Assembly (NCBI GenBank): GCA_913043815.1 | Contig: CAJWNY010000002.1 | Span: 17,575-81,574, forward strand | Source of the DNA: an uncultured Gammaproteobacteria bacterium | GTDB lineage: Bacteria; Pseudomonadota; Gammaproteobacteria; Pseudomonadales; Azotimanducaceae | Length of the DNA stretch: 64,000 nucleotides | Reading direction: 5' to 3' | Shown here: piece after piece, positions 24,286-33,703 of the stretch | How the letters are laid out: each line of letters begins with the position of its first letter | How positions within the stretch are numbered: position 1 is the first letter of the stretch | Made by a program: the position numbers and the translations under genes | Notes under the pieces: model-generated | What the model was told of the DNA's origin: nothing | What the model saw: only the letters and a program-made list of their open reading frames with translations | Databases searched by the model: none

Positions 24286-24507
24286 GTTGCTGTCCTATAA
24301 CCGTCTTGTGACTTAGTGGATAACAATGGTCTCCATATTGCCCTGAAGGAGAGAGATGGTGAAGCGAAAAACCTTTGTATTTGAGATAAACCTAGATAAC
24401 TCTTTTAATCCGTTATAGCGATGATCAGAGCGCGTCAATTTGCTGCTGCACCAGGCGCTACTAACTTTCGGCTGGACTCTTTGCCTGAGATGGTCGTATC
24501 ATGACTC

Positions 24508-24652
24508 TGCCTAAGGGGGGGCGTTAAGCCTGAGATTCTCCTTGTTGTTGATGCGTATTCGCACTAATCATACGAATATAAAGAAGCAATAAGACAGTGA
24601 ACCCTTTGAACCTGATCCGGTTAATTCCGGCGTAGGAATAGGAGTTATTACT
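24508..24652 (+). promoter_or_regulatory. TPP (Thi-box) riboswitch
   Basis: GGGGGGCGTTAAGCCTGAGA ... ACCCTTTGAACCTGATCCGGTTAATTCCGGCGTAGGAATAGGAG closely matches the Thi-box consensus; a variable stem GTATTCG...CGAATAT lies between the halves. Confidence 0.96.
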
Positions 24653-24710
24653 GCTCTGGAAGTATTGGCGTTATGCCAACTGCCTCCCTAGGTTGAATAA
24701 CAATCCCAGA

Positions 24711-24732
24711 CCTTAGGCATTCAGTCTAAGGA
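24711..24732 (+). promoter_or_regulatory. Hairpin sequestering the Shine-Dalgarno of the TonB receptor (expression platform)
   Basis: CCTTAG-GCATTCAGT-CTAAGG; the 3' arm contains the AAGGAG SD located 8 nt before ATG 24740. Confidence 0.65.
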
Positions 24733-24739
24733 GTAGTTA

Positions 24740-26869
24740 ATGTCCAATAAAGTGTGTCCTTTTTTTTTCTTGCTCTCGTTTGCGGCAAAGTCGTCTCGTG
24801 TTGCCAAGTTATTGCAATTGAGCGTGTTAAGTTTTGCTGCCTGTTTTTTATCCAGTTCCGTTTTTGCAGATGATGTGAAAGATGTCATCGAAGAAGTCAT
24901 TGTTACTGGCGAGTTTCGCGAGACTTCTGTGTCCGAGCTAGCAGCAAGTGTATCCGTCTTATTGCCCGAGCAAAATGGTGATTCGGTTAATCATCTTGAA
25001 GAAATTTTGGGTCGCGCTCCAAATGTTAATTTTTCCAGTGGCGGCTCTCGTGCTCGTTTCTTTCAAGTTCGCGGTATTGGTGAGCGCGGTCAGTTCGCCG
25101 AACCTCTGAACGCCTCGGTAGGCTTACTGGTAGATGGGGTTGATCTTAGTGGTATAGGCACTGCGGCAACGCTTTCTGACGTTTCTCAAGTAGAAGTTTT
25201 TCGTGGGCCGCAAGGTACAGTATTTGGTGCTAATGCACTTGCAGGATTGATCAATGTTGTTACGCCAAGTGTGGATGATGAGCTTTCAGGGTCAGTTGAT
25301 TTAGGTCTAGGTAACTACTCTGCGATAGACTTAGGAGGCGTTTTGTCTGGTCCAATTAATGACCGTGTTGGTTTTCGCGTGAGCGCTCATCAATACAAAG
25401 ACGATGGCTTTATCGACAATGTCCGCTTGGGTAGAGAAAACACTGACAATCATGATGAGACCACTATACGAGCAAAAGTTGCTGGTGATCTTGAGCAGGG
25501 TGATTGGCAAGTAGTGTTCGGTTTAATAGATATTGATAATGGCTACGACGCTTTTTCGTTAGACAATGATCGCAATACGCGCTCCGACGAACCTGGTTCT
25601 GACACTCAAGAAAGCCAATACGTTGGCATAAACTTCGGTCTCAATCTTAACGAAAAAGTTGCCCTAGACGCCTCAGTTGCATATGTGACAAGTGATATCG
25701 ATTATGGCTACGACGAAGATTGGACTTTCGCCGGGTTTGATGCGATTGGCTATAGCGCCACTGATTTGTATAGTCGGGATATAGATACAGTAACTTTGGA
25801 TCTGCGCATGCTCTCGCGCGCAGGTGCAGGTTTAGCTGAGGGCAAAGTAGACTGGGTGGTTGGTTTCTATGTACTTGATCGTAAGGTTGATTTAATTCGT
25901 CAGTACACATACTTAGAGAATAATTTTTCCAGCAACTTTGATGTTGATCGTGTTGCTTTTTATGGCGAAGTTAGCAGTGATTTGGCAAAGGGTTTGCGCT
26001 TGAGCGTGGGACTGCGTGCTGAGGAGCATAGCTCTAATTATTCTGACAGCGAAAGTGTCAGCTTTGCCCCAGATGATAACTTGCTTGGTGGGCGCATTTT
26101 GTTGGAGAAAGCCTTGGTTGATGAGAACTTGTTTTATGCCAGCTTGACTCGGGGTTACAAGTCCGGTGGATTTAATACTGCTGGCAGTTTAGATGCAGAC
26201 TTGCGCTTGTTTGATCCGGAAACTCTGTGGAATCTGGAGTTGGGGTATAAGGGCTCAATGATGGAAGATCGGTTGTCCCTTCGCACAGCTGTTTTTCATA
26301 TGCAGCGACGCGAGGTACAAACGGCGACTTCTATTACCCGTGTCAGAGTCAACGGATCATCTGAATTTATTGATTACGTGGGTAATGCGGCTGAGGGCGT
26401 CAACCAAGGTTTGGAGCTCGAAGTGTCCTTTCAAACAACCGATCGTTTGCAACTCTCTGCAAGTTTAGGTCTGTTAAAAACACAGTTCGATGATTACATC
26501 GACGGCAGTGGTCAAAATCTTGACGGTAGAGATCAGGCACAAGCTCCGAGCTATCAATTTTATCTCAGCGGTGATTATCAACTCGCTCAAGGCTGGTCTT
26601 TGAACGTGAATCTTGAAGGCAAGGACGACTATTACTTCTCAGATAGTCATACCGAGCGGTCAACTAGCTACGAGTTGCTTAACGCATCCATAGCTTATTC
26701 AACTCAGCGCTGGGACTTAAGTCTATGGGGTCGTAACCTGGCGGGTAAAGATTACTTTGTGCGCGGCTTTTTCTTCGGTAATGATCCTCGAGACGGTTAT
26801 ACCGCTCGCGGATTTACACAACTGGGCGCGCCAAGACAATTTGGCATCAGCGCTTCGACGAACTTTTAA
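24740..26869 (+). CDS. TonB-dependent outer-membrane receptor (probable thiamin/precursor uptake)
   Basis: Signal peptide; TonB-box/plug (EEVIVTGEF; VEVFRGPQGTVFGANALAGLINVVT); C-terminal barrel GAPRQFGISASTNF; directly behind the TPP riboswitch. Confidence 0.93.
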   Translation: MSNKVCPFFFLLSFAAKSSRVAKLLQLSVLSFAACFLSSSVFADDVKDVIEEVIVTGEFRETSVSELAASVSVLLPEQNGDSVNHLEEILGRAPNVNFSSGGSRARFFQVRGIGERGQFAEPLNASVGLLVDGVDLSGIGTAATLSDVSQVEVFRGPQGTVFGANALAGLINVVTPSVDDELSGSVDLGLGNYSAIDLGGVLSGPINDRVGFRVSAHQYKDDGFIDNVRLGRENTDNHDETTIRAKVAGDLEQGDWQVVFGLIDIDNGYDAFSLDNDRNTRSDEPGSDTQESQYVGINFGLNLNEKVALDASVAYVTSDIDYGYDEDWTFAGFDAIGYSATDLYSRDIDTVTLDLRMLSRAGAGLAEGKVDWVVGFYVLDRKVDLIRQYTYLENNFSSNFDVDRVAFYGEVSSDLAKGLRLSVGLRAEEHSSNYSDSESVSFAPDDNLLGGRILLEKALVDENLFYASLTRGYKSGGFNTAGSLDADLRLFDPETLWNLELGYKGSMMEDRLSLRTAVFHMQRREVQTATSITRVRVNGSSEFIDYVGNAAEGVNQGLELEVSFQTTDRLQLSASLGLLKTQFDDYIDGSGQNLDGRDQAQAPSYQFYLSGDYQLAQGWSLNVNLEGKDDYYFSDSHTERSTSYELLNASIAYSTQRWDLSLWGRNLAGKDYFVRGFFFGNDPRDGYTARGFTQLGAPRQFGISASTNF

Positions 26870-28176: not shown

Positions 28177-28310
28177 TGGCTTCATAAGTTCCGTAGACGT
28201 TGTTAATTAAGGACTGAGCGCTTAGACATGGTTTTCACATGGCATGTCTTACTTTGTGGCGCTTAAAATTTATTGAAAAATCTGAACAATCTATTAGGGA
28301 AGAGAAAGTT

Positions 28311-29348
28311 ATGAAACTGGGAATCATTGCCGGCTACTCCGGACGCAAATTCAGTATCTCCATGGATGCCATAAAGCATGCTGAAAACTTGGGTTACGAC
28401 TCAATTTGGACTGCAGAAGCCTACGGCTCAGATGCTGTCACGCCTGCTGCATGGATTTTGGCGCAAACTGACCGCATTAAAGTGGGCACCGCTATTATGC
28501 AAATGCCAGCGCGTTCGCCTGCAATGGCTGCAATGACAGCTATGAGTCTGGCGGAGTTGTCAGGCGGACGATTTATTGTAGGCCTTGGCGCTTCGGGACC
28601 ACAGGTGGTTGAGGGGTGGCACGGGGTACCTTACGGCAAGCCGGTTACTCGCTTACGTGAATATATTCAGATTATGAAGAATATTTTTGCTCGAGAAAGT
28701 GCTTTGGAATTTGAGGGTGATATGTATCAAATGCCATACAAAGGACAAGGGGCTACTGGGTTAGGTAAGCCTCTCAAAAGCATACTGCACTGTGAAGAAG
28801 ATATTCCGATCTTTGCCGCAACAATCACAAACAATGGTGTGGCTGCGGCCGCAGAAGTCGCCGATGGTTTTTTTCCAGTGTGGATGGACCCAGAGCAATA
28901 TTCGGTATTTGAAGGGCCAATTCAAAAAGGCTTCGAAAAAGCCGGCGATAAAAATTTGACTCAATTTGAGATCGCCCCATTCGTAACCGTTTCGATGGGC
29001 GATGATTTGGCCCAATGCATGATGCCGGTCCGCGGGATGATGGCACTTTACATAGGTGGTATGGGCGCGCGCGACAAGAACTTTTATAACGACTACTGCA
29101 AGCGTTTAGGGTTTGAAGATGCTGCTGTGAAGATTCAAGATCTGTATTTGGCAGGTAAGAAAGACGAGGCGATGGCTGCAGTTCCTGAAGAACTCATCGA
29201 CGCATGCGCGCTTGTAGGTCCTGCGGAGAGAATCCGTGAACGTCTAAAGCGCTGGAAGACTGCAGGCAATCATGGCCATGTTTCTAGCATGTTGTTGGGT
29301 TGCCAAGATCCAGCTGCTCTGCAGGTTATTGCTGAGGAAATACTTTAA
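28311..29348 (+). CDS. LLM class (F420-dependent type) oxidoreductase
   Basis: AENLGYDSIWTAEAYGSDAVTPAAWILAQTDRIKVGTAIMQMPARSP...; luciferase-like fold signature. Start set at MKLGIIAG with an upstream SD. Confidence 0.9.
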   Translation: MKLGIIAGYSGRKFSISMDAIKHAENLGYDSIWTAEAYGSDAVTPAAWILAQTDRIKVGTAIMQMPARSPAMAAMTAMSLAELSGGRFIVGLGASGPQVVEGWHGVPYGKPVTRLREYIQIMKNIFARESALEFEGDMYQMPYKGQGATGLGKPLKSILHCEEDIPIFAATITNNGVAAAAEVADGFFPVWMDPEQYSVFEGPIQKGFEKAGDKNLTQFEIAPFVTVSMGDDLAQCMMPVRGMMALYIGGMGARDKNFYNDYCKRLGFEDAAVKIQDLYLAGKKDEAMAAVPEELIDACALVGPAERIRERLKRWKTAGNHGHVSSMLLGCQDPAALQVIAEEIL

Positions 29349-30601: not shown

Positions 30602-31603
30602 ATGTCGGTGACTAAAAGAATTGCTGTGACCTTGCCTGCTGGACCAAGAGTGGCGGATACCGTGGCGCGTATTAAGTGGGCGGAAGACAATGGCATTTCC
30701 GATGCTTGGTTCAGTGATTCTGGTGCTCCAGATACCCTCACGCAGGTTGCAGGTATTGCTCATGCAACCACCAGCATACGCATAGGCACAGCTGTGACGC
30801 CGGTTTACACGCGTTCGCCCTCAGTACTGGCAGCCTCAGCTAATGTGATTGGGCAGCTGCTGCCTGGACGTTTCATCATGGGTTTAGGCTCGTCTAGCCA
30901 AACTATCATGGGTCAATTCAATGGTATTCCCCTGGAAAAGCCATTGACTCGTGTACGTGAAACGGCTGAGTTGGTAAAGATCATGCTCTCCGGCGCTAAA
31001 ACCGACTATGACGGTGAAACCGTGTTTAGCCGAGGTTACCGCCAAGCGCCTATGGAAAATCCTCCACCTGTCTATTTGGCAGCACTTCGCCCGAAGATGA
31101 TCGAGATGGCCGCTGAAATAGGCGATGGCGTTATTTTTAACCTCTGGCCAAAAGGCGCTTTGCCTAAAATGATGGAGCACGTGGCCATTGGTGCAAAAAC
31201 CGCGGGTAAAGACCCGGCGGATATTGAAATTGTTAATCGCGCTATGGTCCTGTGTACCGACGATAAAGAATATGGCCGTAATCTGTTTCGTGCTGCCTTT
31301 GGCCCATATTACGCTACTCCCGTGTATAACAAGTTTCTATCATGGGCAGGCTATGACGAAGCTGCCGAGACTATCTCTAAAGGTTGGGCGGCTAAAGATA
31401 GAGATATGACCGCCAGTGCCATGACTGATGCGATGATTGATGAAATTGCAATTATTGGTAATGAAGACGAAATACGCGCGCGTATCCAAGAAGATGCAGA
31501 TGGTGGTGTTGATACCCACATTATTGCTCCACTAGGTGGTTCGAAAGAGGACTTGGATCGTACGTTCTCGGCATTCACTGGCGATAAGTTTCAATTTGCT
31601 TAG
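30602..31603 (+). CDS. LLM class flavin/F420-dependent oxidoreductase
   Basis: AEDNGISDAWFSDSGAPDTLTQVAGIAHATTSIRIGTAVTPVYTRSPSVLAASANVIGQLLPGRFIMGLGSSS. Confidence 0.9.
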   Translation: MSVTKRIAVTLPAGPRVADTVARIKWAEDNGISDAWFSDSGAPDTLTQVAGIAHATTSIRIGTAVTPVYTRSPSVLAASANVIGQLLPGRFIMGLGSSSQTIMGQFNGIPLEKPLTRVRETAELVKIMLSGAKTDYDGETVFSRGYRQAPMENPPPVYLAALRPKMIEMAAEIGDGVIFNLWPKGALPKMMEHVAIGAKTAGKDPADIEIVNRAMVLCTDDKEYGRNLFRAAFGPYYATPVYNKFLSWAGYDEAAETISKGWAAKDRDMTASAMTDAMIDEIAIIGNEDEIRARIQEDADGGVDTHIIAPLGGSKEDLDRTFSAFTGDKFQFA

Positions 31604-32489: not shown

Positions 32490-32695
32490 GTGTTTATTCA
32501 CCCCGTAAATCTGCTGAAATGGTTTCACATAGGGTTTGGACAAAGCAGGCTGTACCATTGAGCTTCAATAGATGGCGTTGCATCAATGGCTTGAAAAGAA
32601 TTAGATAACCGAGATTACAAAATGTAACCGTAGTCCCGTTTTTGCGGTCGGGGTAAGCCAGCCGTTTGATTGAAATTTATTATTGGAGAGAGAAT

Positions 32696-33703
32696 ATGAA
32701 AGTCGATGCAGGTATTGGTCATCACCTTAATGAGATCCCAGCGACAGTTAAAAAACTGGAGGTAGCTGGGTACGACGGTGTGCGTACAGCAGAAATGAAT
32801 CACGATCCATTCTTCCCACTTTTGTTGGCAGCGGAGCATAGCGATAAGCTTGAAATAGCCAGCTCTATCGCAGTGGCCTTTGCCCGTAGCCCAATGAACC
32901 TGGCGAATATTGGCCATGACTTGAACGCTTATTCAAAAGGGCGGTTTACTCTTGGCTTGGGTTCGCAAATAAAACCGCACATTACCAAGCGTTTTAGCAT
33001 GCAGTGGGGCGCTCCAGCGGCGCAAATGCGTGAATTGGTCTTGGCTATGCGCGCCATTTGGGGTAATTGGTATAACGGTGACCCGTTAGAATTTGTTGGT
33101 GAATACTATAAACATACGTTGATGACCCCGGCGTTTACGCCGGAAGACAAAGACTTCGGTGCGCCTAAAGTTGTTTTGGCGGCCGTGGGACCAAAGATGA
33201 CAGAGGTTGCAGGTGAGGTTGCCGATGGAATGATCATCCATCCGTTCAGCACAATGGCATACATAAATGAAGTGACCATGCCCGCAATTAAGCGTGGCTT
33301 AGCTAAAGCAGGTAAGTCTAGAGACGGATTTGAATTGTCTTATTCTTGTTTTGTTGTTACCGGTAGGGACGAAGAGGAATTTGCGAAAAGTAAAAAAGCG
33401 ACTCAAGAGCGGATTGCATTTTATGGCTCTACGCCTGCATATAGGGGTGTTTTAGATTCGATCGGTTGCGGCGAGTTGCAAGGCGAGCTAAACACTATGT
33501 CTAAGCAGGGGCGTTGGAAAGAAATGGGTACGCTCATCAGCGACGATATGTTGGATAAGTTTGGTGTAATGGGTGAACCCCAGGAAATTGCACCGGCTAT
33601 GCTTGAGCGGTATGGGAGCTTTGTGGATCGCACATCTACGTCGTTCCCAGTTTCTGATGAAGCTCAGCGCAGAGCGATTATTGAAACCCTGCGCGCTGGA
33701 TAG
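32696..33703 (+). CDS. LLM class F420-type oxidoreductase
   Basis: KLEVAGYDGVRTAEMNHDPFFPLLLAAEHSDKLEIASSIAVAFARSPMNLANIGHDLNAYSKGRFTLGLGSQ. Start set at MKVDAGIG. Confidence 0.9.
   Translation: MKVDAGIGHHLNEIPATVKKLEVAGYDGVRTAEMNHDPFFPLLLAAEHSDKLEIASSIAVAFARSPMNLANIGHDLNAYSKGRFTLGLGSQIKPHITKRFSMQWGAPAAQMRELVLAMRAIWGNWYNGDPLEFVGEYYKHTLMTPAFTPEDKDFGAPKVVLAAVGPKMTEVAGEVADGMIIHPFSTMAYINEVTMPAIKRGLAKAGKSRDGFELSYSCFVVTGRDEEEFAKSKKATQERIAFYGSTPAYRGVLDSIGCGELQGELNTMSKQGRWKEMGTLISDDMLDKFGVMGEPQEIAPAMLERYGSFVDRTSTSFPVSDEAQRRAIIETLRAG

Follow-up and report, generated by a model that had tools for sequence, protein, structure and literature searches.

A TPP riboswitch-linked TonB-dependent receptor as the probable outer-membrane step of thiamin scavenging in an uncultured gammaproteobacterium

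In a contig of an uncultured gammaproteobacterium, a TPP riboswitch lies in front of a gene for a TonB-dependent receptor, which raises the question of what this receptor brings across the outer membrane and how its synthesis is controlled. The arrangement as such is already known from omr1 and OMthi, and here it receives better comparative support together with a narrower predicted cargo. According to PMC2211319, TPP riboswitches have been reported upstream of btuB-like outer-membrane receptors in metagenomes, and the same paper cites Rodionov et al. 2002 for omr1, i.e. thiamin-regulated TonB receptors. Of two marine surveys, one (PMC10881298) describes omr1 with a nearby TPP riboswitch in SAR86 auxotrophs, and the other (PMC12442306) calls its specificity unclear. 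The receptor studied here resembles omr1 in that a TPP riboswitch is located upstream of a BtuB-like TonB receptor, but it stands alone, with no pnuT beside it. OMthi (BT2390) of Bacteroides thetaiotaomicron is likewise a TPP-riboswitch-controlled TonB-dependent receptor, and genetics show its role in thiamin uptake: in PMC5613172, deletion of OMthi together with the biosynthetic operon is described as raising the thiamin requirement about tenfold. The OMthi operon is split from pnuT, as in the present genome, whereas its host belongs to another phylum and also makes thiamin; the two systems are likened by description.

A complete TPP aptamer precedes the receptor gene

The whole window, i.e. 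the 64,000 nucleotide stretch of DNA analysed here, was scanned with cmscan against all families of Rfam 15. A single match was obtained, corresponding to the TPP riboswitch family (RF00059), and no second TPP riboswitch was found elsewhere in the genome. Its score of 60.9 bits exceeds the gathering cutoff of 54.3 bits, and all model positions (1–105 of 105) are covered, indicative of a complete aptamer. The elements in and around it are as follows (window coordinates).

24473–24502, + strand: candidate promoter (TGGACT, 18 nt, TATCAT), ending just 5′ of the aptamer; 9/12 consensus positions
24504–24655, + strand: TPP riboswitch aptamer (RF00059) with an extended P3 arm; E = 1.7e-9
24740–26869, + strand: TonB-dependent receptor, 709 aa, predicted thiamin (or thiamin phosphate) receptor; PF07715 and PF14905

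The sequence-only reading had proposed a TPP riboswitch upstream of a TonB receptor at 24508–24740, a span which misses only the first four bases of the aptamer match and runs through the leader to the ATG; both the covariance score and the presence of PF07715 in the ORF bear this out. An insert of ~58 nt, which folds into a hairpin, extends the P3 arm, variable P3 arms being ordinary among TPP riboswitches, and the same riboswitch element was observed in three close relatives (65.1–67.5 bits). The number of sites in the region that match the promoter consensus as well as the candidate is at chance level; its TGGACT hexamer is kept in all three close relatives, in which the second hexamer reads TATGAT.

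The receptor gene is the next ORF after the aptamer on the same strand, at a distance of 84 nt. Its product was shown to encompass both a plug (PF07715, 5.2e-14) and an outer-membrane β-barrel (PF14905, 5.1e-8) in Pfam searches, and its closest relatives (86–87% identity) are encoded by metagenome-assembled genomes (MAGs) labelled as K189A clade, Pseudomonadales or Gammaproteobacteria. Comparison with NCBIfam and the PDB identified no ligand class; the closest solved structures, to which similarity is weak, are the pesticin receptor, the pyoverdine receptor and BtuB. As had been noted from the sequence, no thiamin biosynthesis gene was recognisable among the ORFs neighbouring the receptor, and the neighbours tested encode a bifunctional penicillin-binding protein and a DsbA-like protein. 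Three ORFs located close together in the window (28239–29348, 30602–31603 and 32666–33703) resemble luciferase-like monooxygenases by eye only.

Family-wide linkage and exclusion of ThiC

To place this locus among its relatives, 151 genomes of the family were surveyed. A TPP element was identified in 129 of these, nearly always exactly one, and receptor orthologues in 116. In 106 of the 116 receptor genomes the riboswitch is positioned directly upstream of the receptor and in the same orientation, with a median of 104 nt up to the matched receptor region, a linkage across relatives of the kind by which omr1 and OMthi are recognised. Six of the ten receptor genomes without an upstream riboswitch have a receptor that starts fewer than 120 bases from a contig end. 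A siderophore or cobalamin receptor of the usual kind, placed behind a TPP riboswitch by coincidence, would fit the weak similarity to siderophore receptors and BtuB, yet this explanation is highly improbable given the 106 linked genomes and the mutual exclusion of receptor and ThiC described below.

ThiC was found in 21 of the 151 genomes, and the receptor was absent from all 21 at a threshold of E 1e-60, which a diverged receptor in ThiC genomes could escape. Conversely, ThiC was present in none of the 116 receptor genomes versus 21 of the 35 genomes lacking the receptor (Fisher p = 9e-17, relatedness ignored). The riboswitch is located in front of thiC in all 16 of the ThiC genomes that were compared. 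Receptor-type and ThiC-type genomes occur together in four genera, and the change between these states has therefore probably occurred more than once. As the sole TPP riboswitch is located on thiC or on the receptor depending on the member, these genera offer a means to study how synthesis and import of the vitamin are traded for one another. A family-wide exclusion of this kind was not found in the available text of the omr1 literature (PMC2211319, PMC10881298 and PMC12442306). Restriction of the receptor to genomes without ThiC, as observed across the 151 genomes, supports the riboswitch-linked receptor as a marker of marine bacteria that must take up vitamin B1 intact. The exclusion does not hold without exception beyond the family, as a Pseudoalteromonas locus (L096) carries both a receptor homologue and thiC.

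Gene order in other Gammaproteobacteria

Eighty loci were fetched by receptor similarity, and in most of these a TPP motif was observed just upstream of the receptor. Rfam confirmed a TPP riboswitch at this position in 12 of the 14 wider loci tested; the remaining two are derived from Pseudoalteromonas, in which the riboswitch is located elsewhere in the locus. In L096 the TPP element (2783–2897, − strand) lies ~1.2 kb from the receptor on the opposite strand and precedes thiC, and by pattern the element has the same position and orientation relative to the receptor in four other Pseudoalteromonas loci (L098, L100, L102 and L110).

A PnuC-family gene was identified downstream of the receptor in 30 loci, in many of which it is followed by an APH kinase gene; where tested, these kinases resemble ThiK with scores below cutoff. 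A receptor, a PnuC-family gene and a ThiK-like kinase are what an operon for thiamin uptake would be expected to contain. In Colwellia, Litorirhabdus, Pleionea and others (L064, L087 and L103), a homologous receptor (42–45% identity) is encoded behind a TPP riboswitch in the order TPP–receptor–PnuT–kinase. This linkage of pnuT and kinase to the receptor, present in other Gammaproteobacteria, is absent in the genome under study, where the Pnu gene is located on another contig beside genes for NadR-like and APH kinases. In a further locus (L141) an MFS gene next to a TPP element was rejected as its target, since gene and element share a strand and the gene comes first. The locus of Pleionea mediterranea (L103: 8173–8289, − strand) additionally holds a match to the TwoAYGGAY RNA (RF01731; 56.9 bits).

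Thiamin pathway genes and the predicted cargo

The genome itself (2.85 Mb in 133 contigs, gammaproteobacterial, with marine K189A-clade/Pseudomonadales MAGs as closest relatives) is roughly 90% complete, so that single absences carry little weight without genus-mates. Among 40 genomes of the genus, ThiL scored over cutoff in 37 of the 40, including the genome under study, while neither ThiC (again including this genome) nor thiamin pyrophosphokinase (TPK) was found in any of the 40. Within the ~90% of the genome that is assembled, ThiG, TenA and ThiB were not found, nor was any ThiE over cutoff, the sole ThiE-family match being a sub-cutoff one of 72 residues (24.4 bits). Weak matches to the ThiG and ThiE families were discounted, as they cover part of the barrel and score no higher than the cutoff, with the exception of a ThiE-family match in one genus-mate (G157; C4: 327–872), which is a full-length TMP-TENI (ThiE/TenI) match in a genome nevertheless lacking ThiC. 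An inventory of this kind had been proposed alongside the sequence-only reading; of its items, thiL was recovered, thiC, thiG and an over-cutoff thiE were not, and one Pnu-family gene was located on contig C39.

HMP and thiazole are not joinable without ThiE, and the cell should accordingly need intact thiamin or its phosphate. Where partial auxotrophy had been suggested, the gene content points instead to what should be full thiamin auxotrophy, within the limits set by a 90%-complete assembly and the other genomes of its genus. For the same reason, intact thiamin or a phosphate ester is the likely cargo of the receptor. The original proposal of uptake of thiamin or a moiety thereof consequently divides: acquisition of vitamin B1 is a prediction strongly supported by the family linkage, the receptor–PnuT–kinase order and the exclusion of ThiC, whereas HMP and thiazole lose their standing in a genome without ThiC, ThiG, TenA and an over-cutoff ThiE. 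That the receptor imports a precursor or breakdown product (HMP, AmMP or thiazole) which is then built into thiamin is very improbable, since such compounds could not be joined in this genome and since the genes that follow the receptor in relatives, for PnuT and a ThiK-like kinase, are those with which salvage of intact thiamin would be expected. Precursor transporters are nonetheless also controlled by TPP riboswitches, as stated in PMC3766115, and such vitamers are used by marine bacteria according to PMC10881298.

A main cargo of thiamin monophosphate or pyrophosphate, or of a form bound to a protein or a metal, in place of free thiamin would agree with the ability of ThiL to use imported TMP directly, with the absence of TPK from the genus and with the large ligands bound by the closest solved receptors (the pesticin and pyoverdine receptors and BtuB). 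In the operons of relatives, however, PnuT and the ThiK-like kinase both act on unphosphorylated thiamin, which makes such a cargo unlikely; periplasmic phosphatases could supply this substrate, so that the argument is not decisive.

The receptor thus very probably represents the outer-membrane step of vitamin B1 scavenging, under TPP control, in a thiamin auxotroph. With regard to its cargo and to the inner-membrane and kinase steps, we infer a route in which the receptor would take thiamin (or thiamin phosphate) across the outer membrane using TonB energy, a carrier in the inner membrane (perhaps the C39-encoded Pnu-family protein) would bring thiamin inside, and a thiamin kinase and ThiL would convert it to TPP.

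The Pnu-family gene and its neighbouring kinases

The only Pnu-family gene found in the genome is located on contig C39, not on the receptor contig, and is followed by a gene for a NadR-like AAA_28 kinase and a convergent APH kinase gene (L139: 6618–8585); the three genes are conserved together in those loci of the genus that were examined. In a phylogenetic tree the C39 protein falls outside the operonic PnuT group (split support 85/90) and groups beside proteins from two other loci, L067 and L069 (88/81). In these two (L067: 2693–6052), a Pnu–AAA_28 gene pair lies directly upstream of, and in the same orientation as, a TPP riboswitch and receptor. The possible cargo of the C39 protein is thiamin or nicotinamide riboside. 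A tentative proposal, with the odds against it, is that thiamin in this genus passes the inner membrane through this PnuC-like protein, which is not a member of the operonic PnuT clade, and is phosphorylated by the NadR-like AAA_28 (or the convergent APH) kinase; if true, this would be a way of salvaging thiamin that employs a new kinase.

Proposed control of receptor translation

Three short elements were considered as the basis of riboswitch control.

24509–24516, + strand: GCCUAAGG, P1 5′ strand and flank, proposed anti-sequestor strand; exact complement of 24711–24718
24711–24718, + strand: CCUUAGGC, proposed switching strand; pairs with 24509–24516 or, through 24711–24716, with 24726–24731
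24726–24733, + strand: CUAAGGAG, Shine-Dalgarno region; sequestered once the aptamer fold is enforced

The first six bases of CCUUAGGC are complementary to CUAAGG (24726–24731), which overlaps the Shine-Dalgarno sequence. In the unconstrained fold, 24509–24516 and 24711–24718 pair with a probability of about 1.0, and early coding sequence pairs with part of the Shine-Dalgarno sequence, which is therefore not clearly fully open in this state. When the aptamer was enforced in folding, 24711–24716 paired with 24726–24731 at 0.95–0.99 for five of the six pairs. The leader thus suggests translational control through alternative pairing of CCUUAGGC, as modelled by these folds. Regarding the direction of control and the switching pairings, we infer that plentiful TPP would bind the aptamer and close P1, which would leave CCUUAG (24711–24716) free to cover the Shine-Dalgarno region, and translation of the receptor would drop; when TPP is scarce, GCCUAAGG would pair with CCUUAGGC and the Shine-Dalgarno sequence would be released. 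These pairings represent a model rather than a demonstration, since the elements are invariant in the three closest relatives, and hence show no covariation, and since the predicted unconstrained folds differ among them.

The missing covariation support would also suit a riboswitch that acts chiefly on transcription, by Rho-dependent or intrinsic termination, instead of covering the Shine-Dalgarno region. A search of the leader revealed no intrinsic-terminator-like site between the aptamer and the ATG, on which ground intrinsic termination was rejected, and a chiefly transcriptional mode of action is doubtful overall. It is also opposed by complementarity to the Shine-Dalgarno region, which exceeds that of mononucleotide shuffles in many leaders: the mean z was −1.5 across 54 leaders, 34 of which fell below a z of −1, with kinship ignored in both values.
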